64,000 bases of DNA, taken from Rhodothermales bacterium (GTDB lineage Bacteria; Bacteroidota; Rhodothermia; Rhodothermales; JANQRZ01). The notes under the pieces are model-generated. The model was not told the origin of the DNA and searched no databases. It was given only the letters and a program-made list of their open reading frames with translations. Below are positions 11,079 to 30,252 of the stretch, in pieces. The position numbers and the translations under genes were made by a program. Positions within the stretch are counted from its first letter, which is position 1. Each line of letters opens with the position of its first letter. The stretch covers positions 1-64,000 of the forward strand of contig JANQRZ010000014.1 in the NCBI GenBank assembly GCA_028284265.1, given 5' to 3'.

Positions 11079-11229
11079 AGCCGGGGCTTAACTATATTCT
11101 CATCGGAGCTTCTCGGATGAAAACAGAAGACCCGGTGAGCCGTCCCTCGCCGTTTTCCCGTAGTTGTTGGGGAGAAGATGTTGCACATCGCCTGTGCGCT
11201 ATCGGATTTCCCCCTTTACACCTGCTCTC

Positions 11230-13284
11230 ATGAAGCACGCTTTCGATAGTCTGCTGCGGCAGCGCCTTGCCACAGCCCTCCTCCTCGTATCGAGCCTTTC
11301 GGCGCTCGGCCTTGTCGGCCTGACCCTCGCTCCGGGGTCGGTCACATCAGTGCCGAGCGAGACGGCGCGCGTCCCGGCGCTCCTCGCTTCGGACGCGATG
11401 GCGGCCCGTCCGGTCTTCGCCACACGCACCATTGAGACGCGCCGCATCGCCGCGACCACGGAAGCCGAAGCACCCGTCGGCCTCTTGAAAGCGTGGCTCG
11501 ACGCCGCCGACGGGTCGGTGCGCGGGCAGGCGCTGATGCAGATGATCGCCGACTCGGCCCACACCGCGCTTTATGTGGATGGGGCCAATGATGAGGAGTC
11601 GCGCTACCCGTCGGCCAACACCTGTCAGACGTGTCACCCGGACCACTACCGCGAATGGTCGGTCTCGTCGCACGCCTATGCCCAACTCAGCCCCGTCTTC
11701 AACGCGATGCACGGGACCATCCTCAAGCAGACCAACGGCACCAACGGCGACTTCTGCATCCGCTGCCACACGCCGGTCGGGATGAACCTCAACGAACCGG
11801 AGTTCATGTCCAACATGGACCGGCACCCGACCTCGCGCGAGGGCATCACCTGCATCGTCTGCCACCGCGTCAAGAACGCCTACTCGAAGATCAGCGGGCG
11901 CTTCGCCATCGTCGAGGGCGACCTTCTCGATCCAGTCTTCGGCTCCATCGGCGACGTGGAGCTAGACCGCGTCATCAACGACCCGGCGTTCAACGTCAAC
12001 ACCGAGCGCGGGCGCGCAGGCCGGTCCATCCACACCGACGCCATCGAGTTCGAGCAGATCACCGAGTCGTCCTTCTGCGGGTCGTGCCACGACGTGAACC
12101 TCGTCAACGGCTTCCGGCTCGAAGAGGCGTTCAGCGAGTACAAGGCCACGCCTGCTGCGAAGCGCGGCGTCTCGTGCCAGGACTGCCACATGGGCAGCGT
12201 TCCCGGCGAGGATAAAGGCTACGACGAAGGCCCCGCCGCCATCGTCGGCGGCAAGGCGACGATGAACCGCAGGCGGACCAACCACCGCTTCGCCGGGCCG
12301 GACCACACGATCATCCACCCTGGCCTCTTCCCGCAGAACGTCCGCGCCAACGAAATCGCCACGATGCGCGAGTGGCTGACATTCGACGTGGACGCCGGGT
12401 GGGGTACGAATGAGTTCGAGGACAGCGTGCCCGACGGCTACCTCTTCCCCGAACGCTGGGCCACCGCCGACGACCGCTACGACGCCCGCGAGTTGATCGA
12501 CGAGAACCTCGAAGCCCTCGCCGAAATTGATGTCGAGCGCTACGCTGTCCTCCGCGCAGGGTACGTTCTCGGCGACATCGCCGTAGACCGTGCCGGACCG
12601 GACGGAATCAAGTTCCACGTCGAGGTCAAGAACGGCACCGATGGGCACAACGTCCCGACCGGCTTCGACGCCGAGCGCCTCGTCTTCCTCCAAGTCACTG
12701 TTACCGACGCCGACGGCAAGGTCGTCTACGTCTCTGGCGACCGCGACCCCAACGGCGATGTGCGCGACCTGCACTCGATCTACGTCCACAATGGCGAGCT
12801 TCCGCTGGACGAAGACCTGTTCAGCCTCCAGTCGAAGTTCCTGACGCGGATGATCCGGGGCGGCGAACGCGAGCAGGTCATCGCAGTCAACTACTCGCCC
12901 AGCCCACTCCCCTTCCTCCGACCCTCGACCCGCTCGACGGTGCTCCTCGGTCGCCCCGTTGGGGCGCGTAAGCACCGGGCGACGATTGCTCCGGGAGACA
13001 TCGAACGTCCCGAGTACCGTGTCAGCCGCCGTGAGCTAGAGGGCAGCCGCCCGCCGTACAGCGCCAACGTCAAGCTGATCGCGCAGATGGTGCCGGTCAA
13101 CCTGATCGACGAGATTCAGCACGTCGGGTTCGACTACTTCATGACACCGCGCCAAGTCGCCGACCGGGTGGTTGAAGGCGCGCTCACACTCTGGGATGTG
13201 GATGTGGCGCTCGGCGATGGTGTCCGCGTTGCCGCGACGCTGCCCGACGATGAAACGGCCTCGAACGAGGGAGGGACCCGATGA
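11230..13284 (+). CDS. Pentaheme c-type cytochrome, membrane-anchored or secreted
   Basis: 684 aa from the ATG at 11230, which opens a hydrophobic signal segment (about residues 14-35). Five CxxCH heme sites: C132 (CQTCH), C176 (CIRCH), C208 (CIVCH), C283 (CGSCH) and C316 (CQDCH). Their arrangement and the SHAYAQLSPVF and GITCIVCHRV segments recall the cytochrome c554/multiheme family. Residues after about 350 have no heme sites and form a large beta-rich domain (NGTDGHNVPTGFDAERL region) that may bind a partner or substrate. First gene of an eight-gene operon; its stop overlaps the start of the barrel gene (ATGA), which suggests the two products work together at the outer membrane. Confidence 0.88.
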   Translation: MKHAFDSLLRQRLATALLLVSSLSALGLVGLTLAPGSVTSVPSETARVPALLASDAMAARPVFATRTIETRRIAATTEAEAPVGLLKAWLDAADGSVRGQALMQMIADSAHTALYVDGANDEESRYPSANTCQTCHPDHYREWSVSSHAYAQLSPVFNAMHGTILKQTNGTNGDFCIRCHTPVGMNLNEPEFMSNMDRHPTSREGITCIVCHRVKNAYSKISGRFAIVEGDLLDPVFGSIGDVELDRVINDPAFNVNTERGRAGRSIHTDAIEFEQITESSFCGSCHDVNLVNGFRLEEAFSEYKATPAAKRGVSCQDCHMGSVPGEDKGYDEGPAAIVGGKATMNRRRTNHRFAGPDHTIIHPGLFPQNVRANEIATMREWLTFDVDAGWGTNEFEDSVPDGYLFPERWATADDRYDARELIDENLEALAEIDVERYAVLRAGYVLGDIAVDRAGPDGIKFHVEVKNGTDGHNVPTGFDAERLVFLQVTVTDADGKVVYVSGDRDPNGDVRDLHSIYVHNGELPLDEDLFSLQSKFLTRMIRGGEREQVIAVNYSPSPLPFLRPSTRSTVLLGRPVGARKHRATIAPGDIERPEYRVSRRELEGSRPPYSANVKLIAQMVPVNLIDEIQHVGFDYFMTPRQVADRVVEGALTLWDVDVALGDGVRVAATLPDDETASNEGGTR

Positions 13285-14786
13285 CTTACCGCCTCTGTTC
13301 GCTACTGCTGGTTGTCCTTCTTATCGGCCTCGCCCCCATCGCCTCGGCACAGCACGGCGAGGATGGGCACGAAGACGATGGCTATGGTGATAGTGACAGC
13401 CGCTTCTCTGACGAGCCGATCCCACTCGCCGACGTTCCCGACCGGCCCCGACCGCTCATCGAGATCGGCCCGAAGTTCCTTGGGACGGGTAACATCAACC
13501 AAGGCTTTACGCTCCCGACCGGCGCGGTGTGGACGCCTGCCTTCATGGCCTTCGGCACGCTCCGCACCGCCACGCAGGGCGCGGATAGCGGCGTCACCGA
13601 CACCCAGTTCGGCGAGTCGGTCGCACGCTTTGATCTCTTCGGCAACCTGTACCTGACGCAGACCGAGCGCATCCTCATCGGCTTCCGCCCGCTCGACCAA
13701 GACGGGCGGTTTACGAGCTACACGTTCCGCTCCCCGACTGAGTTCATCGACCCGGAGACGGGCGAGACACAGGACAACTTCCAAGAGGAGCTCAACTTCT
13801 ACATCCGCACCCTCTTCTTCGAGGGCGACCTCGCGGAGCTTTTCCCGAAACTCGACTGGGATGATAGCAGCCCACTCGACTACTACATCTCTGTCGGTCG
13901 GCAGCCGTTGAGCTTTCAGGATGGGATGCTCATCAACGAAGACGCCATCGACATGGTCGGGCTGACGCGGGCGAACATCAAGCTCGGCGGCCTTGTCAAC
14001 ACCCGCGTCGCCGCCGTATTCGGATGGGGCGATGTGAACCGCCACTCGGGGACGGGCGGTGCCTTTACGGGCTGTGCGGACCTTTTGGGTAGCCAGCTCC
14101 CTGCGGGTAACTGCGAGGATGAGTCAGCGCTCGTATTCGGCCTCCTCACTGAGTCCGACTCCCGGAAGCGAACCATCGAGATCGACGGCCTCTATGTGCT
14201 GGGAGACGAGACGACGGGCGACGGCGTCCACGGCGGCATCGGCGTGACGCAGCGCATCGGCGAGTACAACAACACCTTCCGCGTCGTCGGCTCCTACCCC
14301 GTCGGCGATGAGACACCATTCAACCGGGCAGGCGTGCTGGTCCTCAACCAGTTCGGGTTTACGCCGCACCACACCTACAACTGGGCCTACATCAACCTCT
14401 TCGGCGGCGTCGGCCAGTTCCGATCGGCAGCGCGTGGTCCGGCGACAGGTGGCCCTCTCGGGCAGGCCGGGTTGCTGTTCTCGGCGGTCGGCATCGGGCG
14501 CTTCGGCGCAGCGCTCGGCAACCAGGCAGACAAAGCGGTGGGCGGCGGCATCGGCTACCAGATGTTCTTCGGCAAGACCCGGCGGCAGCAACTGATTATC
14601 GAGGCAGGCGGACGCTACACCTATGCCGATGACGTGGTGAAGCAAGACATCGTTGGTGGCACGGCGCAGTTCTCCTTCGCGGTGGGTCGGCGCGGCACAA
14701 TCATCCTCGGTGGATTCGGGGCCTATGATCTTAATGCCAGCCAGCCTAACTTTGGGGCACGCACCGAACTGGTGATCCGACTCTAA
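13281..14786 (+). CDS. Outer-membrane beta-barrel (porin-like) of the cytochrome operon
   Basis: 501 aa. Signal peptide 1-24 ending ASAQ. The mature N-terminus is a short His/Asp/Glu-rich stretch (HGEDGHEDDGYGD) that could bind metal. The rest is alternating aromatic/polar strands with Gly turns (RFDLFGNLYLTQTERILIG, LDYYISVGRQPLSFQDG), and the C-terminal strand ends in RTELVIRL, which fits a porin-like barrel of about 16-22 strands. It has no heme motif. Placed between two multiheme cytochromes with a 4-nt overlap upstream, it is the natural candidate for the sheath of a porin-cytochrome conduit. I see no sequence likeness to MtrB-type proteins, so the role is inferred from context. Confidence 0.68.
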   Translation: MTYRLCSLLLVVLLIGLAPIASAQHGEDGHEDDGYGDSDSRFSDEPIPLADVPDRPRPLIEIGPKFLGTGNINQGFTLPTGAVWTPAFMAFGTLRTATQGADSGVTDTQFGESVARFDLFGNLYLTQTERILIGFRPLDQDGRFTSYTFRSPTEFIDPETGETQDNFQEELNFYIRTLFFEGDLAELFPKLDWDDSSPLDYYISVGRQPLSFQDGMLINEDAIDMVGLTRANIKLGGLVNTRVAAVFGWGDVNRHSGTGGAFTGCADLLGSQLPAGNCEDESALVFGLLTESDSRKRTIEIDGLYVLGDETTGDGVHGGIGVTQRIGEYNNTFRVVGSYPVGDETPFNRAGVLVLNQFGFTPHHTYNWAYINLFGGVGQFRSAARGPATGGPLGQAGLLFSAVGIGRFGAALGNQADKAVGGGIGYQMFFGKTRRQQLIIEAGGRYTYADDVVKQDIVGGTAQFSFAVGRRGTIILGGFGAYDLNASQPNFGARTELVIRL

Positions 14787-14800
14787 GACCCTTCGCCGTA

Positions 14801-16918
14801 ATGGATCAAGGCAGCGTCCCCGACCGAGCAGACCATGAGCCGCCGAGCGCGGCCCCGTCGTCTCCCCCGGTCCGCCGCCCGCCCTCCGCTGCCTGGTTCT
14901 TCGGGGCTATGCTCGGCGTCGCCCTCATCGTGCCCCTCGTGACATGGGCCTTCGCCCAGAGCGATCCGACTAACCTTTCGGACTCGCCCTACCTCCGCAT
15001 CGACCCGGCGAAGATCGTCCTTTCCGACCGCGACTCGCGCATCCCCTGCGGCGAGTGCCACAACCTCGAATATGAGGTCTGGACCGAGACCAAGCACGCG
15101 ACGGGTTTCGACGAGCTACACCGCTCGGAGCAGGCACAAGGCATTCTGGAGCGGATGGAGTTCCGCCTCTCGAAGCGCGAGAGCCTGTGCCTGAAGTGCC
15201 ACTACACAGCGAACATCAAGCGCGAGCAGGTGCAGGCGATTGCGGGCGTCTCGTGCGAGTCGTGTCACGGCGCTGCCCGAGACTGGGTGAACATCCACCA
15301 AGACTATGGTGGCGGGGACCATGAGACGGAAACTCCGGAGCACAAAGCGATGCGCGTCGCCCAGAGCATCGAAGGAGGCATGCTCCGCCCATCTTCCGAC
15401 CTCTACGCCGTCGCGGCTAACTGCTTCGAGTGCCACACGGTCCCCGAGGAAGACCTCATCAACGTCGGCGGGCACCCGAGCGGCAGCGCGTTCGACCTGA
15501 TCGAGTGGAACAGCCAGATCGCCCACAACTTCGTGCAGGCGCAGTGGGGTGGTCCCGAGGTCAATCGGGAGGTCACACAAGAGCGTAAGCGGCTGATGTT
15601 CGTCGTCGGCAAAGCGCTCGACTATGAATACAGCATCCGAGGGGCTGCGCAAGCGACGAAGGCAGACATCTACTCGAAGGCGATGGAGCGCCGCGTTAAG
15701 ACCGCCCGTCGCGACCTCGACCGGGTGCTCCGGGTCGCCGAGATTCCCGAGGTCGCCGAGATTCTGAGGATCGGGCAGAACCTCTCGATCACACCAAACA
15801 ACGAGACAGCGCTCATCGCCGCTGCCGATGCGATGAGCGCGCAGGCGCAGCAGTTCGCACAGCAGAACGACGGCTCCGAACTCGCTGCGCTCGACCCGCT
15901 CGTGGCCGGTGAGAGCGTGCCGGAGGCCGAGCCACTCGATGAAGACCCCGTCGTTGCCGGTGGTCCGGCTCCCGGCGACTCGGGTGCCGCGCTGCCTGCC
16001 GTCGATCCCGGCTCTGACCCTGTCGCGTCCGGCCCGAGTGCGCCCGCAGCTCCGACCGTGCAGGGCGAGCGACGGACACGCCCGGCATGGTTCCCTCGTC
16101 TCAACCAAGAAACCATTGCCCCCGGCGGCTGCGGCTGCCACGGCGACCAGCTCCGCTGGCACGGCGACGACGCCCACAACTTCGCTGCCGAGCCGATTCT
16201 CAACGAGAGCGGACGCGCTGTAGAGATCGCCACACTCTATGGGCTGAGTCGCTCGCAGATGAAACGCGGCAACCAACTTTGCATGAACTGCCACGGCACC
16301 GTCGTCTCGGGCGACGAGTCCGAGGAGGTCTTCGACGGCGTCGGTTGCCAGAGTTGCCACGGCCCAGCGGGCGAGTATGCCAGCAACCACCAGAGCGACG
16401 GCTATGACCAAGGGGCCCCGCTCGGCATGGTCCGGCTCGAACAGGCGTCCGCCCGCGCTCAGAACTGCGCCCGCTGCCACCACATCACCGACGAGCGCCT
16501 CCTCGCCTCCGGCCACTCCGACGGCACCTCGTTCCAACTCGCCAGCCGCAACGGGGCCATCCAGCACTGGGAAGCCCCCAACCTCAGCGCGGGCGACCTG
16601 AACAGCGCCTACGGCTCCGCTATCGCCTCGCGGCCTGTCCCGAACGTGCAGGTAGTTTCGCTGCCGAGTCCCATCGCTTCGGCGGCTCCCTCCGGTGGAA
16701 ACGCACGCACGCCCCGAGCGCCGACCGGGCGACCCGTCGCCGCACCTCCGCCGCCGCCGCGTGCTCGGCCTGTGGCCCGTAGAGCCTCGCGCTCTGCCGC
16801 ACCGAACATCGACCTGCCCCCCCTCCCCGCCGTCAGCGACAGCACGGCAACCGAGGACATCCTGCTGATTATCAAGCAGCGACTGGAACGGCTCTCCCAA
16901 GCACTCGGCGGAGGATGA
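14801..16918 (+). CDS. Multiheme cytochrome with duplicated tetraheme modules
   Basis: 705 aa. N-terminal ~30 residues are Pro/Ser-rich and cytoplasmic, followed by one membrane anchor (about 31-52). Module 1 has CxxCH at C83, C130, C152 and C208. Module 2 has a shortened C444 site (CGCH), then C494, C516 and C556. The modules share the same order and wording around sites 2-4 (for example VSCESCHGAA against VGCQSCHGPA, both 22 residues after site 2). They are joined by a Pro/Ala/Gly/Asp linker (about 355-430). The C-terminus is another Pro-rich tail. This is therefore an internal duplication of a c554-like tetraheme unit. Anchored in the inner membrane, it could carry electrons through the periplasm. 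It lies 14 nt after the barrel gene. Confidence 0.85.
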   Translation: MDQGSVPDRADHEPPSAAPSSPPVRRPPSAAWFFGAMLGVALIVPLVTWAFAQSDPTNLSDSPYLRIDPAKIVLSDRDSRIPCGECHNLEYEVWTETKHATGFDELHRSEQAQGILERMEFRLSKRESLCLKCHYTANIKREQVQAIAGVSCESCHGAARDWVNIHQDYGGGDHETETPEHKAMRVAQSIEGGMLRPSSDLYAVAANCFECHTVPEEDLINVGGHPSGSAFDLIEWNSQIAHNFVQAQWGGPEVNREVTQERKRLMFVVGKALDYEYSIRGAAQATKADIYSKAMERRVKTARRDLDRVLRVAEIPEVAEILRIGQNLSITPNNETALIAAADAMSAQAQQFAQQNDGSELAALDPLVAGESVPEAEPLDEDPVVAGGPAPGDSGAALPAVDPGSDPVASGPSAPAAPTVQGERRTRPAWFPRLNQETIAPGGCGCHGDQLRWHGDDAHNFAAEPILNESGRAVEIATLYGLSRSQMKRGNQLCMNCHGTVVSGDESEEVFDGVGCQSCHGPAGEYASNHQSDGYDQGAPLGMVRLEQASARAQNCARCHHITDERLLASGHSDGTSFQLASRNGAIQHWEAPNLSAGDLNSAYGSAIASRPVPNVQVVSLPSPIASAAPSGGNARTPRAPTGRPVAAPPPPPRARPVARRASRSAAPNIDLPPLPAVSDSTATEDILLIIKQRLERLSQALGGG

Positions 16919-16919
16919 G

Positions 16920-18572
16920 ATGAGCATGGGTCCACACAGCGGCACAGCCGAACAACGGGTGCAACTCTACGAGGACCGCTGGTCGTCCTATGGCGACTCG
17001 ACCGGTCTCGCCGATCTCTCCGAACGCCCGACTGCAAAAACACTCAAGGCGTTCGACCTCTTCAAAGAGTTCGATGACGAGGTACTGGAGACGCTCTCGC
17101 AGGATATCTCAGTGGCGAAGTGGGAAGCCGGAGCCATCCTCTTCGAGGAGGGCAGCTACCTCGACCTCGCGTTCTACATCGTCGAAGGGTCGGTCAGCCT
17201 CTTCCTGCAAAAGCACGCGGATGCCCCGCCGCAACCTATCTATACGACGCGGATGGTGACTACCCCGGAGGGTGGCGGGGGGGCAACGAAGATGTACGAC
17301 AAGACGGTCTTCGAGGAACAGATCGAGGCGCAGAAAGAGCATCAAGCGAAGGATGCGACGAAGATGACGATGCTCGCGTCGATGGACTTCGACCTGAGCA
17401 AAGGCGAGGAGCGGACGCTCGGTTCGGGTGAGATTTTCGGCGAGATCGGAGCGCTCAACGGGTGGCCGCAGTCGGTGACGGCGCGAACGGCGTCGGACTG
17501 TACGCTCGTACAGATTCGGTTGCCTGCGCTGCAACAACTCAAGCGCAAGTCGAAGGACTTCAAGGCGTGGACCGACCGGCTCTACCGCGAGCGCTCGCTG
17601 TGGCAGCAACTCAAGACCACCCCGCTCTTCGCGGGTGCCGATGACGCCTTCCTCTCCGACCTGACGCAGAAAGTCGAACTGGTCTCGTGCTCACCGGGCG
17701 AGGTGGTAGCGCAGGAAGGTGAAGCTACGGACGCGCTCTACCTCGTCCGCTCCGGCTTCCTCAAAGTCTCGCAGCGCCTCGCCGACGAGGACGTGGCGAT
17801 GACCTACCTCAGCAAAGGGATGACCTTTGGCGAGGCCGAGTTGCTCATGGATGGCCTCGATGCGTGGCAGTTCACCCTTACCTCGGTCGGCTATACCGAA
17901 CTCGTCCGCGTTGAACGAAGCGACTTCGCCCGCCTCGTTCAACGCCACCCTGCTGTCGAGCGTCACCTGTGGGAAGCGGCCGTCGCCCGGATCAAAGAGA
18001 CCGGCGCGACGAGGCAGCGACCGGAGAAGACCGACCTGATCGAGTTCTCACTCGAAAAGGGGCTCGTCCAGGGCAACAGCATCTTGGTCATGGACCTTGA
18101 CGTGTGTACGCGCTGCGACGACTGCGTGCGAGGCTGCGCGAGCACCCACGGCGGGCGGCCCCGGTTCGTCCGCGAGGGCGACCGCTACGACAACTTCCTC
18201 ATCGCCCGAAGCTGCTACCACTGCGAAGACCCCGTCTGCCTGATCGGCTGCCCGACGGGCGCGATCCGACGAGCCAATGTCGGCGAGGTCGTGGAGGTAG
18301 ACGACAGCCTCTGCATCGGGTGCAGCAACTGCGCCAACAAGTGCCCCTACGACGCCATCGTGATGCACGAGACGGGCGAGACATGGCCGGACACGGCGCT
18401 CCCCGAGTGGCTCCGCGGCAAAGACCGCAAGGTGGCAAGCAAGTGCGACCTCTGCCACACGTCAGACGAAGGTCCGGCGTGTGTAACGAGCTGCCCGCAC
18501 TCGTGCGCCTTCCGCATCAGCACGCTCGACGAGTTCCAACAGCTTCAGGCCATCAGCGGGGCGCAGCGATGA
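16920..18572 (+). CDS. Double cNMP-binding-like domain fused to a four-cluster ferredoxin (DmsB/NrfC type)
   Basis: 550 aa, cytoplasmic, no signal peptide. Residues about 44-200 and 232-350 have the cyclic-nucleotide-binding fold (FGEIGAL at 173, FGEAELL at 303). Both phosphate-binding cassettes lack the Arg that holds the cyclic phosphate (PQSVTA at 183-188; DAWQFT near 314-319), and the first domain carries an insert of about 70 residues. Residues 390-530 hold sixteen Cys in four [4Fe-4S] groups: C396/399/402/406, C432/435/440/444, C465/468/471/475 and C509/512/521/525. This is the electron-transfer subunit pattern of DmsB/PsrB/NrfC. GGAGG stands just before the ATG at 16920. It overlaps the cytochrome b gene by ATGA, which suggests direct electron transfer to or from it. 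Confidence 0.87.
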   Translation: MSMGPHSGTAEQRVQLYEDRWSSYGDSTGLADLSERPTAKTLKAFDLFKEFDDEVLETLSQDISVAKWEAGAILFEEGSYLDLAFYIVEGSVSLFLQKHADAPPQPIYTTRMVTTPEGGGGATKMYDKTVFEEQIEAQKEHQAKDATKMTMLASMDFDLSKGEERTLGSGEIFGEIGALNGWPQSVTARTASDCTLVQIRLPALQQLKRKSKDFKAWTDRLYRERSLWQQLKTTPLFAGADDAFLSDLTQKVELVSCSPGEVVAQEGEATDALYLVRSGFLKVSQRLADEDVAMTYLSKGMTFGEAELLMDGLDAWQFTLTSVGYTELVRVERSDFARLVQRHPAVERHLWEAAVARIKETGATRQRPEKTDLIEFSLEKGLVQGNSILVMDLDVCTRCDDCVRGCASTHGGRPRFVREGDRYDNFLIARSCYHCEDPVCLIGCPTGAIRRANVGEVVEVDDSLCIGCSNCANKCPYDAIVMHETGETWPDTALPEWLRGKDRKVASKCDLCHTSDEGPACVTSCPHSCAFRISTLDEFQQLQAISGAQR

Positions 18573-19492
18573 AACCGACCGTCCCCAAGAAAGCCTACCG
18601 ACCGAGAGCGTCTCGCGCTGCCGCAAGCGGCGTGCTGAAAACGGCAGGCCAGACAACCAAGCGCTCTGGTGCGACCCGGTGGGCCAATACGTGGGTGCAG
18701 TCACCCAACTGGTTCTTCGGGTTCTGGATTGTGGTGGCGCTGTGTCTCGTGATCTACACGCTCAATGCGCTATTCGGTCAGGTCCATCCGGGGAGCGCGT
18801 GGGGCCTGAGCTACGGTATCGCAGCGACCATCCTGTTCGTGGCGGTCTTCCTGTACGCGCTCCGGCGGCGGCTGATGAAGGTGCGTGCGCTCGGGCGCTC
18901 ATGGGTCTATCTCCAAGTCCATGTCTACGGGGGCGCGCTCTTCCTCCTACTCGTGTTCATGCACACCGGCTTCCAGTGGCCGCAGGGCGTGCTGACGTGG
19001 TGGCTCTGGGCACTGAGCATCTGGGTCGTCGGCAGCGGCCTGCTCGGGATCGTCCTCCAAAAGTGGCTCCCGACGCTCCTCAGCAGCGGCCTCACCACCG
19101 AGGTTCACTACGACCGCATCCCCGACCTCGTCAGCGAGATTCGTCGCCGCGCCGAGGCGCTCGTCGAAGACGCGGACTACGCGATTCGGACTTTTTATCG
19201 GGATGACCTTGCCCCCTCCCTCACCGGGCCGGAGACGCACCTCGCCTACTACCTCGGAGCCTCTGACGTGAACGGGCGCAGCCGACAGTTCGACGCGCTC
19301 GGCGCGATGCTTCCAGCGGAGGAGCGCGCCAAACTGTCGGAGCTTCGAGAGATGGTCCAGACGAAGCAGGAGATCGACGCGCACTACACGCTCCAGAAAG
19401 CGCTGCGCGGGTGGCTCCTGCTGCACGTCCCAGTCTCGGTCGTGCTCATCGTGCTTCTCGGATTCCACATCTTCTCGGTCTGGTACTGGTAA
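18569..19492 (+). CDS. Diheme b-type membrane cytochrome
   Basis: 307 aa. Five hydrophobic segments at about 48-70, 81-98, 112-133, 141-164 and 280-303. Two His pairs, H118/H132 and H286/H300, are each spaced 14 residues within membrane segments, the spacing of bis-His b-heme ligands (as in cytochrome b and b561-type proteins). A cytoplasmic or periplasmic loop of about 110 charged residues (170-280) separates helix 4 from helix 5. The start ATG overlaps the upstream ferredoxin stop and its own stop overlaps the next ATG (TAATG), so it is coupled to both. Likely role: quinone-linked electron passage between the four-cluster ferredoxin and the decaheme cytochrome. Quinone binding is inferred. 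Confidence 0.8.
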   Translation: MKPTVPKKAYRPRASRAAASGVLKTAGQTTKRSGATRWANTWVQSPNWFFGFWIVVALCLVIYTLNALFGQVHPGSAWGLSYGIAATILFVAVFLYALRRRLMKVRALGRSWVYLQVHVYGGALFLLLVFMHTGFQWPQGVLTWWLWALSIWVVGSGLLGIVLQKWLPTLLSSGLTTEVHYDRIPDLVSEIRRRAEALVEDADYAIRTFYRDDLAPSLTGPETHLAYYLGASDVNGRSRQFDALGAMLPAEERAKLSELREMVQTKQEIDAHYTLQKALRGWLLLHVPVSVVLIVLLGFHIFSVWYW

Positions 19493-21048
19493 TGGCGGCT
19501 AAACCGAAACGCAAAGGATTTTTCAGCCGACTCCGCCTGCCGGTAGCGAAAGAGTACGTCTACCCATCGTCGCGCACAGGAATGTTCCTCGTCGGCGGTG
19601 TCGGGGCAGCGCTCGTGCTCGGGCTGTTCGCGTTCAACGCCTTCGTTCAGGAAGGGGCGCTCGTCTCAAACGGGCCGCTGTCCTCGAACCACGCGAGTTT
19701 CGGCGGCGACTGCCAAGCGTGCCACACGCCATTCCAAGCCGTCACCGATGACAAGTGCTCCGTCTGCCATGAGAAATACGGCGATGAGATCGGCGTCCAC
19801 ACCTTCGAGTCGCACTACCTCTACCGCTCGGCGGACTTCACGCGCGTCGTCCCCCAACCTAATGAGCCTGCATGCTTCAACTGCCACAACGAGCACGTCG
19901 GGCGCGACGCGCCGATCACCGAGGTCGCCGACGCGCTCTGCCTCCAGTGCCATGAGTACGGCTCGTTTAACGACGGGCACCCGGAGTTCCAAGCCGTCGC
20001 CGACAGCCTCGAAGACCCGAACCTAAAATTTCCCCACACGCTCCACGTCAACGAAGTCAGCGACCGCGAGGACTTGGTCGATATCGAACAGGCATGCCTC
20101 TACTGTCACAACGCCGACGACGAGGGCAAAAACTTCCAGCCGATCTCGTTCGACCAGCACTGCGACACCTGCCACCTGACGACAAGCGTGGCGACGCCCT
20201 GGATTCCGGTGGCCTCGGGCAATACGGTCGGCGTGCTGACACTCGAATCGCTCCGGTCGGACGGGCGGCCCGGTTCGCTGTGGACCTATTACACCAACCC
20301 GGGTGAGTTCCAGAATCGGGGCGAGACCGTCCGCAAGACGCCGGTCTATCACCAGGACCGATGGGTGATCGCCAACCTTCAGCGCCTCCGCCGCCTCCTC
20401 TATCCCTCAACAGGCCTCGCTGACCTCCTTCTCGCCTCGGGCGATGTGGACACCCGCGAAGCACGAGCGCTCTACGACGAAGCCCTAGCCACCCTTCGCA
20501 CCTACGCCGAGGAACTCAGAAGCTCCCCCGAGCGCACGGTGCAGCGCGAGCTATCCCAAGTCGAGGACTTGCTCGCCGTCGTGGAGCGACGACTACGCGA
20601 CCCCTATGCCCCACTCGACGAGACCAAGTTCGCCGTCTCTCTCGCCGAGCGCGACACGTCGCTGACCGACGACGAGGTGGACGTGTACGAGAGCGTAGTG
20701 GCCCAACTCACGCAGCCGTGCCAGCAGTGCCACTACGTCGAGAACGCTACCATTGTCCGGGCCAAGGCCGACCAGCGCACCCTCATCCGCGCCGAGTTCG
20801 ACCACAGCGCCCACATCACGACCACGCGCTGCCTCGACTGCCACAACGCCATCCCGATCCGCGAGTTCAACGCGACCGAATCGACGCCGCCCCCAGCTCA
20901 GGACCACGCGGGCATCCAGAATCTCCCCTCCATCGAGTCCTGCTTCACCTGCCACGACAACGGCAAGGCCGCGAACACCTGCGTGACGTGCCACCTCTTC
21001 CACCCCGACAAGTCGCAGCATTCCAACCTGCTGCTATATCTGGAATGA
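19492..21048 (+). CDS. Membrane-anchored decaheme c-type cytochrome
   Basis: 518 aa. Basic N-terminus, then one membrane anchor (about 30-50), so the hemes face the periplasm. Ten CxxCH sites at C74, C89, C128, C150, C202, C224, C410, C447, C484 and C497. The first six and the last four are separated by a helical, heme-free linker (about 235-405). Extra His residues (H103, H108, H182, H185, H441 and others) are available as distal ligands. The first cluster reads like a cytochrome c3/NapC-NrfH-type region. The start overlaps the previous stop (TAATG). It is the likely electron carrier between the b-type protein and the other cytochromes. Confidence 0.87.
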   Translation: MAAKPKRKGFFSRLRLPVAKEYVYPSSRTGMFLVGGVGAALVLGLFAFNAFVQEGALVSNGPLSSNHASFGGDCQACHTPFQAVTDDKCSVCHEKYGDEIGVHTFESHYLYRSADFTRVVPQPNEPACFNCHNEHVGRDAPITEVADALCLQCHEYGSFNDGHPEFQAVADSLEDPNLKFPHTLHVNEVSDREDLVDIEQACLYCHNADDEGKNFQPISFDQHCDTCHLTTSVATPWIPVASGNTVGVLTLESLRSDGRPGSLWTYYTNPGEFQNRGETVRKTPVYHQDRWVIANLQRLRRLLYPSTGLADLLLASGDVDTREARALYDEALATLRTYAEELRSSPERTVQRELSQVEDLLAVVERRLRDPYAPLDETKFAVSLAERDTSLTDDEVDVYESVVAQLTQPCQQCHYVENATIVRAKADQRTLIRAEFDHSAHITTTRCLDCHNAIPIREFNATESTPPPAQDHAGIQNLPSIESCFTCHDNGKAANTCVTCHLFHPDKSQHSNLLLYLE

Positions 21049-21087
21049 GAGTTGTTTTTTGCCCTCTGCCTTCTGCTCTCTGAACCC

Positions 21088-21930
21088 ATGCCAGCACGCC
21101 TTTTTTGCAAGACGGGAGAGTTCGCCGGAGCCTCGTTCGAGATCGGCACGGAGACGACGATTGGACGCGGGCCGGACGGTGGGGCGAGTATTCCATCAGA
21201 GGTCGTCTCGGGTCGGCACGCCCGGATTTTTTTCGATGAGAGCGAAGGCAGCTATTTCCTCGAAGACCTTGGCAGTAGCAATGGAACAAAGCTCGATGGA
21301 CTCACGGTCAATGCCCCCGTTAAGCTCGGCGCGCTCCACGTCGTTACTCTCGCCGACCGAATCGACTTGATCTATCACGCTGTGGAACGATCCGCGGCGG
21401 CCCCTGCAACCCTGAAAGCCGAGGTGGGCAAGACCGAGTTTGCGCCGGTGCCCGTGATTGACCTTCCACCGGAGCAGGAGGATGAGGCGAGAAGAACACG
21501 CATCGCTGCCTCCCCTTTCATTGGCCTGCCGCCTGAGCCAGAGGCTGCGGGACGTGAGACACAGCCAGAAGACATTCACCCACCCGCCCCTTCCGATCCG
21601 GGACCTCTAGAGGCACCCACGATTGTCGAACCGCCGCGCTTCGCACTCGACATCGCCCGACTGGATGATAACCCCAAGACCTTTCTTCTCATTGAAGGCG
21701 AGAATACCGTCGGGCGCTCGCCGGAATGCACCATCATGGTCGACGCTCAGTCGGTCTCTCGGCAGCACGCCGTACTGACCGTTCGCGGTGGACGCATCAC
21801 GGTACGCGACTTCGGAAGCCGCAACAAGACGTTCCTTAACGGGAATCCCGTGGACGCCGAGACAGAAATCCAACCCGGTGCATCTCTCCGGTTTGGGATC
21901 GACATCGAAGCCACACTCCGCCGCGCCTGA
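21088..21930 (+). CDS. Double FHA-domain protein
   Basis: 280 aa, no signal peptide. FHA 1 (about 12-95) has the canonical phosphothreonine-binding residues: GR (TIGRGP), SGRH and SSNGT. FHA 2 (about 200-280) has GR (VGRSPE), SRQH and RNKT, keeping Ser, Arg and Asn but with Lys for the Gly of NGT. The middle is Pro/Glu-rich and disordered. The start at 21088 is chosen because the FHA homology begins directly after it; an in-frame ATG at 21052 would add 12 residues. A pyrimidine tract (CCTCTGCCTTCTGC, about 21063-21076) stands just upstream. It probably brings phosphorylated partners to the electron-transfer complex. No Ser/Thr kinase lies in the window. Confidence 0.85.
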   Translation: MPARLFCKTGEFAGASFEIGTETTIGRGPDGGASIPSEVVSGRHARIFFDESEGSYFLEDLGSSNGTKLDGLTVNAPVKLGALHVVTLADRIDLIYHAVERSAAAPATLKAEVGKTEFAPVPVIDLPPEQEDEARRTRIAASPFIGLPPEPEAAGRETQPEDIHPPAPSDPGPLEAPTIVEPPRFALDIARLDDNPKTFLLIEGENTVGRSPECTIMVDAQSVSRQHAVLTVRGGRITVRDFGSRNKTFLNGNPVDAETEIQPGASLRFGIDIEATLRRA

Positions 21931-21949
21931 CTTATTACCACCCGCCGCC

Positions 21950-24295
21950 ATGCCTTCCTCGGAGATGACCAACGGACACACCGACCTGCCCGATGTGCTG
22001 GACCTCCTCATCGTCGGCGGCGGACCGGCAGGGACGGCGGCGGCGTTCCGCGCCCGCGAACTCGGCCTGAGCGCGCTCGTCATCGACTACGATGACTTGA
22101 TGAAGCGCATCCGCGACTACGCCAAAGACAAGCAGATTCTCCCTCACTTCGGCGGCGGCGACAAGATGCAGTTCCCGCAAGGCGGCGACCTTGTGGCAGA
22201 CCTCCACTTCAGCCCCATCGACAAGGACGACATGTGCGCCGAGTGGAAGGGGCTATACAAGCAGCATGACATTCCCGCTCAGACCGGCGTCGAGTTGACC
22301 GGATTGGAGGCAGGCGAAGACGGCGTGTGGGATGTCAAGACGTGGAATCATCGAGCGAAGGCAGAGCAGACATTCCGTGCCCGCCACGTCGCCCTCGCCA
22401 TCGGTCGCGGTGTCCCGCGTCGGTTTGATATTCCCGGCTCCACTGACGGCATCGCCTACAAGCTTGACGACGCGACGCAGTACGTTGGGCACCCTGTCTG
22501 CGTAATCGGCGGCGGAACGTCGGCAGCCGAAGCCGTCATTGCCCTCTCCGAAGCCAAGGCTGAGGCCGGTGATGAGTGCGCCGTCTATTGGTCGTATCGC
22601 GGCGACAAGTTGCCGAAAGTCTCCAAGGCCCTCGCCGACGCGTTCTTCAATGCCTACATCGGCAACGGCAACATCCGCTACCAGCCCGGCTCCGAGCCTG
22701 TCGCTGTCGTGACCACGCCAGAGAAAAAAGAACACCTCTCGATTCGCGTGGACCGCAAGACGCCCGCCGGGCGGCCCAACGAAACGATCCACCTAGAGTT
22801 TGAGAAGACGCGCTGCGTGGCGTGCATCGGCGAGGACATTCCCGAGGCGCTACTCAACTCGCTCGGCATCTACCTCGTGACCGGCGGACCGAGCGACAAG
22901 AAGCGCATGGTGGTAACGCCACTGCTGGAGACGCAGCAGCCCAACGTCTACCTCATCGGCGACCTCTTGAGCCAGGCTTATCTCGAAACCGATGACTTCG
23001 GAGGCGCCCCGTCGACGTTCCGCGAGATCAAGCACCGGGGCAACATCAAGTCGGCCCTGCGCGATGGTGTCTTCGTGGCCGAAGTCGTCAAACAGAAAAT
23101 CGAAGGGCGCGAGGTGATCGAGGTCAACCTTGACTTTACCGACGGCCCGGCAGAGCCGAAAGAGCAGACCGCGTTAGAGCTAGCGCCACCGCCTACCATC
23201 GCAACAGCGGAGGGGCCGCCAGAAGAGACTATCGCACCGGAGCGCTCGGTCGAAGCTACAGGCAGATTCCTTGTTCGCATCACGGCAGGCGGGATCGAAG
23301 AAGATGAGTTCGCTTTGGAGACAGACGGCACCACAACAATTGGCCGCAGCGAATGCACGATCTCTTTCCCCGAGGATACTACCCTCTCCTCGCCCCATGC
23401 CTCCGTCGTCCACGGACCAGATGGCTACCTCCTACGCGACAATGGAAGCACGACCGGGACGTTCCTCCAGCTTCGCCCTGGCTCGTCCTATACCGTCAAA
23501 GACGGCGATCTGCTCCGCCTCGGCCAGCGCTTCCTCCGGTTCCATGTAGAGGGCGGCACCCACGCCTTTACCCACTACGACGCGACCGGCCAAGTCGTCC
23601 AGCAACAATCCGTCACCGAGGGCACCATCGTCCTCGGACGCGAGGCTCCCGACGTCACGCTCGACGAGCAGGACATGGTGCTCTCGCGTCGCCACATCTC
23701 ACTATCGCTCAAAGACGGTGTACTCCGCGTCAAAGACCTGAAGAGCCTCAACGGAACCTACCTCCGTGTCCGCGATGCTATCGCGCTCGAGAGCGACGAC
23801 CAGTTCCGTGTAGGCCAGCAACTCTTCCGACTGAACGCCAAGGAGGAGGTCACGAAATCCGGCAGCACGACATTCCGGCTCACACCCTACAAGCCAGAAA
23901 ACGCTACTGAGGAAATACTGGCCGTTACGTCTGCGCCGTCTGCCGAATTAGAGACATCACCTGCCGAGGCTCCAGCATCTTCTGCGGAGCACGAGGCTCC
24001 CTCCGTGACGTTCAAAGGAGACGGCACAACCATTCCTGTGAAGCCGGGCCAGACGCTATGCGACGCCGCCGAGGCACACGGCATCGAGCTTCAAGCGGAG
24101 TGCCATGCAGGCATCTGCGGCAGCGACCCCATTCGCATCGTCTCCGGCGGCGAATACCTCGACGTACCGGGCGATGAGGAAGCGGGAACTCTCGAAGACA
24201 TCTGCGACCTCGAAGCAGGCAATGCACCCGGCCGGTGCCGCCTCGCGTGTATGGTTCGCACCACCGGCCCCGTTGTCGTCGAGCGTGTCGGTTAA
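21950..24295 (+). CDS. Flavoprotein reductase fused to two FHA domains and a [2Fe-2S] ferredoxin
   Basis: 781 aa in one chain. Residues about 15-385: two-Rossmann pyridine-nucleotide/FAD reductase with GGGPAG at 23-28, a second GGGTSAAEA near 187 and a YLIGDLL FAD motif. It resembles YpdA/thioredoxin-reductase folds but has no CxxC active site. About 435-530: FHA with degenerate residues (SSPH, TTGT). About 540-640: canonical FHA (LGRE, SRRH, LNGT). About 685-781: plant-type ferredoxin with C718 and C723, but Asp 726 where the third Cys should be, and C752, C763 and C767 further on. Probably moves electrons from NAD(P)H to the ferredoxin domain and on to the operon's iron-sulfur or heme proteins. 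The ATG at 21950 is preferred; ATG 21965 is also possible. Last gene of the operon. Confidence 0.85.
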   Translation: MPSSEMTNGHTDLPDVLDLLIVGGGPAGTAAAFRARELGLSALVIDYDDLMKRIRDYAKDKQILPHFGGGDKMQFPQGGDLVADLHFSPIDKDDMCAEWKGLYKQHDIPAQTGVELTGLEAGEDGVWDVKTWNHRAKAEQTFRARHVALAIGRGVPRRFDIPGSTDGIAYKLDDATQYVGHPVCVIGGGTSAAEAVIALSEAKAEAGDECAVYWSYRGDKLPKVSKALADAFFNAYIGNGNIRYQPGSEPVAVVTTPEKKEHLSIRVDRKTPAGRPNETIHLEFEKTRCVACIGEDIPEALLNSLGIYLVTGGPSDKKRMVVTPLLETQQPNVYLIGDLLSQAYLETDDFGGAPSTFREIKHRGNIKSALRDGVFVAEVVKQKIEGREVIEVNLDFTDGPAEPKEQTALELAPPPTIATAEGPPEETIAPERSVEATGRFLVRITAGGIEEDEFALETDGTTTIGRSECTISFPEDTTLSSPHASVVHGPDGYLLRDNGSTTGTFLQLRPGSSYTVKDGDLLRLGQRFLRFHVEGGTHAFTHYDATGQVVQQQSVTEGTIVLGREAPDVTLDEQDMVLSRRHISLSLKDGVLRVKDLKSLNGTYLRVRDAIALESDDQFRVGQQLFRLNAKEEVTKSGSTTFRLTPYKPENATEEILAVTSAPSAELETSPAEAPASSAEHEAPSVTFKGDGTTIPVKPGQTLCDAAEAHGIELQAECHAGICGSDPIRIVSGGEYLDVPGDEEAGTLEDICDLEAGNAPGRCRLACMVRTTGPVVVERVG

Positions 24296-28201: not shown

Positions 28202-29206
28202 ATGTCTAGACTCTCACTTGCTACTCTCTTCTTTGCCACCCTGCTGATGGTTGGCTGCGATGCCGCTGAGGATGACGGTTCCGGCGGTGGTGGTTCATCC
28301 GCTGAAGCGCCCGGCTATCCCGTCGTCATGGACGAGGTGTGGGGCTTCGTGGATGCGCGCGGCAGCCTCCGCGTGCAGCCTCGCTTCGACTCCGCAGACG
28401 ATTTCTCCGAGGGCCTCGCTGCTGTGCGCGTAGGTCCCTTCTGGGGCTTTGTCGATGAGGGAGGGTCCATCGTTGTCGAACCACTGTACGACTTCGCCGG
28501 GCGCTTCGCCGATGGGATGGCCCCCGTCCGCACCATTGACGGATGGGGCTATATCGATGCGACCGGCATGGTGGTCGTCGAGCCGCAATATGACAACGCG
28601 AGGATGTTTGCCGAGGGCCGGGCCGCCGTGCGCGACGGCCTCCGCTGGGGCTATATCGATGCGACCGGCACGATGGTCGTCGAACCACAGTTCGCTTTCG
28701 CGGGTGATTTCTCCGAGGGCCTCGCCCCCGTCGAAACCCTCGATGGCTGGGGCTTTGTCGATCCGGCGGGCAGCCTCGCCATCGCCGCGACCTACGGTGA
28801 AGCCGGTGCCTTCAGCGATGGGCGAGCGCCGGTACTGATCGGCGACGACTGGGGGTATATCGACACCCGAGGCAGCGTGGTCGTCAACCCACGCTTTGGG
28901 TCTGCCGGTTCCTTTGGCGAAGGCATCGCTCCGGTGCGCGTCGACGAGCGCTTTGGCTACATCAACACGTCGGGCGAACTCGCCATTACGCCTCAATTCG
29001 ATGAGGCGATGTCGTGCGAGCAAGGCCGCGCCGCCGTCCGTCTCAGCTCGCGGTGGAGTTACATCGATTGCGCAACTGGTCTCGTCATCACGACGCCGCG
29101 CTTCTCCGCCGCCTACCCGTTCCAAGGCATTGCCCGTGTCGAACTCGATGAGCGCATCGGCTACATCGACCGCGACGGCGAGTACGTCTGGCTTCCCACC
29201 GACTGA
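28202..29206 (+). CDS. WG-repeat lipoprotein 1
   Basis: 334 aa. Signal peptide with lipobox MVGC, lipidated Cys at about residue 19. The rest is nine WG-type repeats of about 33 residues with the pattern WGYID..G...V.P.F..A..F.EG.A.V (for example GWGYIDATGM and RWGYIDATGT). It ends IGYIDRDGEYVWLP. WG repeats form beta-rich solenoid-like structures of unknown ligand, and are common in Bacteroidota cell-surface proteins. Tandem paralogue of the next gene and probably co-transcribed with it. Confidence 0.88.
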   Translation: MSRLSLATLFFATLLMVGCDAAEDDGSGGGGSSAEAPGYPVVMDEVWGFVDARGSLRVQPRFDSADDFSEGLAAVRVGPFWGFVDEGGSIVVEPLYDFAGRFADGMAPVRTIDGWGYIDATGMVVVEPQYDNARMFAEGRAAVRDGLRWGYIDATGTMVVEPQFAFAGDFSEGLAPVETLDGWGFVDPAGSLAIAATYGEAGAFSDGRAPVLIGDDWGYIDTRGSVVVNPRFGSAGSFGEGIAPVRVDERFGYINTSGELAITPQFDEAMSCEQGRAAVRLSSRWSYIDCATGLVITTPRFSAAYPFQGIARVELDERIGYIDRDGEYVWLPTD

Positions 29207-29238
29207 CCTCGCTTCTCTCCATCCTTCTCGTGACTGCT

Positions 29239-30252
29239 ATGAAACGCGCCCTCTGGCTTCTTCTCCTCCTCCCCCTCTGGACCGCCTGCGACTCCGCCGA
29301 CCCCGACAGTCCGGATGGCGATCCGATTGGCGGCGATGAGCGTCCCTCGCTCTTTCCCGTCGAGCGCAACGACCTCTGGGGTTACATCAATGCCGACGGC
29401 CAGATCGTCGTCCAGCCCGAATACTTCGCCGCCCGCGACTTCGTCGGCGAGGTGGGTCCGGTGCGAGGCCGCCGCAACAACTCCAACTTCTGGGGCTACA
29501 TCGACGCCGAGGGCACCCTCCGCTTCGATCTACCCGTAGACGAGGCATTCCCGTTTGCTGGCGGACTCGCCCGCGTGCGTGTGGGTGGCCGGTATGGGTT
29601 CGTTGATACCGAGGGGCGCTATGTCATCAACCCGTACTTTGAGCAGGCCGACGATTTCTCCGATGGCTTGTCTCGCATCAAACTGAACGGGCGCTACGGC
29701 TACATCGACCGCACGGGCGCGCTCGTGATCGAGCCTTCCTACTGGCAGGCCGAGCCGTTTGTTGGCGGTCTCGCCCTCTTCGAGGATGAAGACGAATATG
29801 GCTATCTCGGCCCCGATGGCATGATCGCCATCGAGCCGCAGTTCGACCAAGCCCGCTCGTTCTCCGACGGTCTCGCCGCTGTGAAGGTTGGTGACAACTG
29901 GGGCTATGTCGATGTCACGGGCAGCTTTGTGATCGACCCTCAGTTTATCAGCGCTGGCGACTTCGGCGATGACCTCGCGCCGGTTCGTACCGAGAACCAG
30001 TGGGAGTACGTGAATCGGCAGGGGCAGCGTGTGATCGGCCCGGCCTATGACGAGGCGCGGACGTTCTCCGAGAGCCGGGCCGCCGTCGCAGTGGACGGTC
30101 AGTGGGGCTTCATCAACGAAGAAGGCACCTTCGTTCGCAACCCCGTCTTCGATCAGGTCGACTCCTTCCGAGGTGGCGTGGCCCGCGTATGGGACGGCGA
30201 GCGAATGGGCTATGTCGGTCCAGACGGGCGCTACGTTTGGCTCCCCGAATAA
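29239..30252 (+). CDS. WG-repeat lipoprotein 2
   Basis: 337 aa. ATG 29239 is preferred over the GTG at 29230 because it directly opens the signal peptide (MKRALWLLLLLPLWTAC). The lipobox is WTAC, with Cys 17. It has nine WG-type repeats, several diverged (RYGFVDTEGR, EYGYLGPDGM, QWEYVNRQGQ), and ends RMGYVGPDGRYVWLP like its neighbour. The shared ending and repeat count show a gene duplication followed by divergence. A surface or periplasmic-side lipoprotein; ligand unknown. Confidence 0.87.
   Translation: MKRALWLLLLLPLWTACDSADPDSPDGDPIGGDERPSLFPVERNDLWGYINADGQIVVQPEYFAARDFVGEVGPVRGRRNNSNFWGYIDAEGTLRFDLPVDEAFPFAGGLARVRVGGRYGFVDTEGRYVINPYFEQADDFSDGLSRIKLNGRYGYIDRTGALVIEPSYWQAEPFVGGLALFEDEDEYGYLGPDGMIAIEPQFDQARSFSDGLAAVKVGDNWGYVDVTGSFVIDPQFISAGDFGDDLAPVRTENQWEYVNRQGQRVIGPAYDEARTFSESRAAVAVDGQWGFINEEGTFVRNPVFDQVDSFRGGVARVWDGERMGYVGPDGRYVWLPE

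Follow-up and report, generated by a model that had tools for sequence, protein, structure and literature searches.

A conserved operon links an FHA-containing flavoprotein reductase with a predicted Asp-ligated [2Fe-2S] domain to multihaem cytochromes

Natural [2Fe-2S] clusters with an aspartate ligand are uncommon, and we know of few proteins that carry one. The N-terminal [2Fe-2S] domain of E. coli SdhB, which receives electrons from a flavin, belongs to succinate dehydrogenase (1NEK), cited in a review as an example of Cys3Asp1 ligation (PMC11138216); in SdhB, a Fer4-type domain carries additional Fe-S clusters, the flavoprotein partner is a different one and FHA domains are absent. NfnA (SudB) of Pyrococcus and Thermotoga is an NAD(P)H flavoprotein with an Asp(Cys)3 [2Fe-2S] cluster (Em +80 mV; PMC8097209), built on a classical FNR-type flavin fold with a PyrK-like Fe-S module, an electron bifurcation partner and no FHA domain. 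Bdr (YpdA) and TrxR-like ferredoxin–NADP reductases (7a7b, 3lzw, 3ab1) stand alone and have a separate acceptor, and canonical plant-type ferredoxins (1frd; Ferredoxin-4, 9i2a; FeSII, 5ffi) hold their cluster with four cysteines. Porin–cytochrome conduits and inner-membrane multihaem modules bring together an outer-membrane barrel, multihaem cytochromes and a membrane cytochrome b.

The locus studied here lies in a 64-kb stretch of DNA from a Rhodothermales bacterium (the window, 64,000 nucleotides), and all of its features are on the forward strand. Its central gene (21950–24295) is an intact open reading frame of 781 amino acids that encodes a reductase, two FHA domains and a [2Fe-2S] domain in one chain (Pfam: Pyr_redox_2 at residues 18–340, two FHA domains with 74.6 bits and Fer2 at 687–769). 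This architecture, proposed in the initial annotation, is upheld by the reading frame, the Pfam matches, the homologue alignment and the fold of the flavin part. The FAD/NAD(P)H domain (residues 15–390; 21992–23119) has a Bdr (YpdA)/TrxR-like FNR fold by VIA-align structure comparison (Z 23.7 to 7a7b, 23.2 to 3lzw and 22.6 to 3ab1), and both dinucleotide-binding motifs, GGGPxG (23–28) and GGGTSA (187–192), are kept in homologues. Whereas its structural relatives act on a separate acceptor, this protein carries a ferredoxin domain fused through the two FHA domains. We rejected its assignment as a thioredoxin reductase proper: the redox-active CxxC of the NADPH domain is missing, and residues 100–260 contain no such motif. 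A different pair, C289-x2-C292 (CVAC; 22814–22825), lies past the NAD(P)H domain and immediately ahead of an IGED motif; C289 is present in 37 and C292 in 38 of 39 homologues, and the pair might be redox-active or structural.

To compare this protein across lineages, we collected homologues; a profile search of genome contigs retrieved them where a single-protein search gave no matches. They came from the order and phylum of the window and from named genomes of Ignavibacteria, Chlorobi, KSB1, Acidobacteria, Gemmatimonadetes and Rhodothermia, with the Acidobacterial and KSB1 phyla as a further source; ligand counts refer to 39 complete ferredoxin domains from at least five phyla. Three genomes hold two reductase copies each: G450 (L043 and L052), G931 (L065 and L073) and G629 (L056 and L062). 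The reductase had no counterpart among the matches from a genome congeneric with that of the window (G001), which suggests that the distribution of the operon may be patchy even among members of one genus.

The ferredoxin domain (24002–24292) scores 28.6 bits against the Fer2 profile in the whole-protein search (cutoff 21), and Fer2 matches all 17 homologue domains searched at E values up to 0.1; a profile comparison with 9i2a gives E 2e-13. As first read, the motif is C718-x4-C723-x2-D726 (CHAGICGSD), with C752, C763 and C767 downstream and an aspartate in place of the third canonical cysteine. In the homologue alignment that the initial annotation had suggested, C718, C723 and C767 are invariant (39/39), and position 726 (codon 24125–24127) is aspartate in 38 domains and cysteine in one, an Acidobacterial protein (L035); the four-cysteine pattern C-x4-C-x2-C...C of canonical ferredoxins is thus replaced throughout nearly the whole family. 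The homologues are diverged, and with D726 retained in all but one of the 39 the pattern is not due to chance. Profile alignment to solved [2Fe-2S] ferredoxins places D726 on the third ligand cysteine and C767 (in RLAC) on the fourth, so that C718, C723, D726 and C767 are the proposed ligands. An Asp-ligated ferredoxin domain is therefore a well-supported prediction with precedents: such a ligand is unusual but not new, because both E. coli SdhB and NfnA provide natural examples of Cys3Asp [2Fe-2S] clusters.

The resemblance to SdhB extends to the C-x4-CGSD string itself (CREGVCGSD in SdhB) and to the proposed Cys3Asp ligation and electron entry from a flavin. However, the fourth cysteine follows the aspartate by 11 residues in SdhB and by 40 in the reductase. 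We considered and rejected an SdhB identity, which would entail Fer2_3 and Fer4-type domains: the reductase has no Fer4 match, and Fer2_3 matches are marginal and found in 5 of 17 homologue domains. Given its match to Fer2, the spacing of its fourth cysteine and the missing Fer4 domain, the reductase is not SdhB, and the shared string may reflect convergence. A search with the domain profile against 148 relatives returned no second Asp-type protein; two weak extra matches (L108 and L109) lack C-x4-C-x2-[CD], and another (L107) is a short fragment.

Between the flavin and ferredoxin parts lie the two FHA domains, which differ in their conservation. FHA2 (residues 541–630; 23570–23839) is canonical, as first described, with the G-R, S-x-x-H and N-G motifs of a phosphothreonine site: R564, S579, R580 and N601 are present in 39/39 homologues and H582 in 33/39. 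FHA1 (residues 440–530; 23267–23539) had been called degenerate, and the motifs behind this view (SSPH and TTGT) are indeed present in the window. Across the family, plain degeneracy does not hold: R466 and S480 are each kept in 31/39 homologues and H483 in 38/39, and position 502 is asparagine in 15/39 and threonine in 16. Because its R, S and H are kept in most sequences, FHA1 is weakened in the window rather than dead in the family.

The reductase gene is the last of a conserved operon, which supports the earlier placement of the protein among membrane redox partners. The first gene (11164–13284; start codon uncertain) encodes a Cytochrome_C554-like c-type cytochrome with five CxxCH motifs (PF13435), assigned with the help of synteny in other phyla. 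It is followed by a porin-like outer-membrane beta-barrel with a signal peptide (13281–14786), whose AlphaFold model contains many long antiparallel strands at modest confidence (mean pLDDT 65.6) and matches MOMP, OccK and AlgE in Foldseek (E 1e-10 to 1e-8). Next comes a membrane-anchored cytochrome c with seven CxxCH motifs (14801–16918; PF13435, 77 bits), so that the barrel is encoded between two multihaem genes, as in porin–cytochrome conduits. The gene at 16920–18572 encodes two cNMP-binding (CRP-like) domains (PF00027, 98 bits) joined in one chain to a ferredoxin part that has four [4Fe-4S] motifs (Fer4 models), comprising 16 cysteines plus C529; no signal or Tat peptide was seen by eye. 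A predicted membrane di-haem cytochrome b (18569–19492) has four invariant histidines in an alignment of 22 homologues, paired as H118/H132 and H286/H300 with spacings of 14 and 14, an arrangement typical of such proteins. A membrane-anchored cytochrome c with ten CxxCH motifs (19492–21048; PF14522 and PF14537) and a double FHA-domain protein (21088–21930) precede the reductase; for the latter, a conserved neighbour, PF00498 matches two stretches (117.8 bits), confirming the two further FHA domains that had been read there. Beyond the operon, and after DUF1800 and DUF1501 genes, two adjacent open reading frames (28202–30252) consist of WG-like repeats (GFVDxxG and GYIDxxG, by eye).

The operon is conserved in Rhodothermota, Ignavibacteria/Chlorobi, KSB1, Acidobacteria and Gemmatimonadota, and the gene order of 11164–24295 is kept in loci that reach far enough. 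KSB1 and Chlorobi have partial versions, in which the first genes give way to large ten-haem proteins encoded upstream. In four KSB1 loci (L038, L086, L088 and L090), the reductase is separated from the cytochrome genes, and because of this it may also serve other partners. Together, the products of the operon would lead electrons between the cytoplasm and the far side of the inner membrane, and perhaps across the outer membrane too, in an inferred order of carriers. Unlike known porin–cytochrome conduits, this putative route includes an FHA-containing NAD(P)H reductase and a cNMP-binding Fe-S protein. Our literature searches, to which subscription journals were mostly inaccessible, found no paper describing the operon, and FHA and cyclic-nucleotide domains go unmentioned in the genome papers on Caldithrix and MBNT15. 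What is new is the combination, from known parts, of FHA domains, an Asp-type ferredoxin and a conserved operon for a putative conduit.

The presence of FHA domains had led to the suggestion that electron entry is kinase-controlled, and with it to a search for Ser/Thr kinase genes linked to homologues. Such genes do adjoin the reductase in several lineages: a kinase lies directly behind it or one gene further on in seven loci (L014, L018, L019, L022, L038, L091 and L092), and elsewhere in the same contig stretch in six (L013, L015, L029, L031, L074 and L081). In 9 of about 37 loci with a readable next gene (L018, L019, L021, L022, L086, L088, L089, L091 and L092), the gene that follows the reductase, 12–113 bp behind it and on the same strand, encodes a PP2C phosphatase; L022 and L092 are from one genus, and some of the others are related. 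With 1–3 PP2C_2 genes per genome in the 14 genomes searched, we estimate that an adjacent PP2C would be expected by chance in well under 1% of loci. Pfam confirmed both protein types in the linked genes tested, several of the kinases having PEGA domains; most Acidobacterial loci are without a linked phosphatase. In the window itself, a motif scan of the 64 kb found no kinase, and no phosphatase lies near the operon. The same genome contains at least 20 kinases, and a block of a PP2C, a kinase (C19:173245) and two further genes (about C19:169.6–174.8 kb), on the same contig as the window and about 150 kb from the operon, resembles the block behind a Chlorobi reductase in order and sequence. By eye, this block (L095, G000:C19:168000-180000) adjoins an FHA protein and type VI secretion-like genes. 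The proposal of kinase control thus gains support from recurrent gene linkage among homologues, whereas the window lacks the kinase.

Taken together, these observations suggest that the reductase, with a predicted Cys3Asp [2Fe-2S] cluster, feeds electrons on the cytoplasmic side into a trans-membrane conduit and is recruited through its FHA domains under kinase/PP2C control; we give this reading a probability of roughly 0.6. The domains, the conservation of ligands and operon and the phosphatase/kinase linkage are read from sequence, and cluster binding, carrier order, flow direction and phospho-docking are inferred. NAD(P)H would be oxidized at the FAD, from which electrons would pass to the protein's own [2Fe-2S] cluster, held by three cysteines and Asp726, then to the Fe-S protein that combines cNMP-binding domains and four [4Fe-4S] motifs, the membrane di-haem cytochrome b and the ten- and seven-haem cytochromes, and perhaps finally to the five-haem cytochrome and the barrel in the outer membrane. 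Docking of the reductase onto a threonine-phosphorylated partner would be the task of the FHA domains, of FHA2 at least, and a kinase and a PP2C phosphatase would determine how much reductase is coupled. More tentatively, and with the balance of our judgement still against it, the operon might represent a widespread respiratory complex in which NAD(P)H electron entry is switched by Ser/Thr phosphorylation, with FHA- and cyclic-nucleotide-type sensing built into the electron-transfer proteins and kinase/PP2C genes alongside in several lineages. If so, it would be an example, from several phyla that are for the most part uncultured, of a kinase and a phosphatase directly controlling where respiratory electrons enter.

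The same parts could be read with electrons moving the other way, from outside or from the periplasm through the cytochromes to a reductase that makes NAD(P)H from NAD(P)+ for biosynthesis. TrxR-like FNRs are able to work in both directions; they include the nearest folds to the flavin domain, and the sequences do not fix the direction. In a table of c-type cytochromes, a ten-haem 'Forkhead-associated protein', which may be related, is entered for 27 genomes of the iron-oxidizing Gallionellaceae (PMC10734462). We nevertheless consider reverse flow unlikely: the high potential cited for an Asp(Cys)3 [2Fe-2S] cluster (+80 mV; PMC8097209) favours movement away from NAD(P)H, although the ligand alone does not fix the potential. 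It is also conceivable that the flavin and [2Fe-2S] centre signal the NAD(P)H state to an FHA/kinase/phosphatase module and take no part in respiratory electron transport, which would suit the two FHA domains per protein, the second double-FHA gene, the cNMP-binding domains on the Fe-S protein and the linked phosphatase and kinase genes. Such a sensor seems improbable to us, given that membrane and cytochrome components lie beside the reductase in most loci whose upstream sequence reaches far enough and that no flavin or NAD(P)H motif has been lost.

Doubts of another kind concern the ligands themselves. The initial annotation offered C752, C763 and C767 as possible replacements; C767 stands, as the invariant canonical fourth ligand, and the other two do not. 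Both are common (C752 in 27/39 and C763 in 22/39 domains), and the full-length AlphaFold model is uncertain at the cluster loop (residues 716–723, pLDDT < 50), which would leave room for one of them as fourth ligand with the aspartate outside the cluster. However, neither aligns with any ligand of solved ferredoxins, and both are lost repeatedly (12 and 17 domains, respectively) while D726 stays: on a quick, unrooted maximum-likelihood tree covering the reductase–FHA portion, C752 is missing from one KSB1 clade and at least three other places, and C763 from more, which makes a cysteine swap highly improbable. With one canonical ligand replaced, the domain might also have stopped binding a cluster, becoming the non-redox relic that the annotation had foreseen for a purified domain lacking a cluster together with homologues lacking conserved cysteines. 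We find this scarcely credible, as the three cysteines are invariant and are joined by the aspartate in 38/39 domains across phyla, and Cys3Asp clusters are known. This repeated loss of C752 and C763 leaves the Cys3Asp site (C718, C723, D726 and C767) as the best-supported prediction.

The family offers a diverse set of small domains for studying the effect of the ligand on potential, including one natural cysteine member. This protein, L035 (194–2440), has the canonical third cysteine in CKVGDCGKC, lacks C752 and provides a natural comparison for the aspartate ligand. On the tree, two proteins of the Asp type cluster with it (99% SH-aLRT), so that its cysteine looks like a later change.
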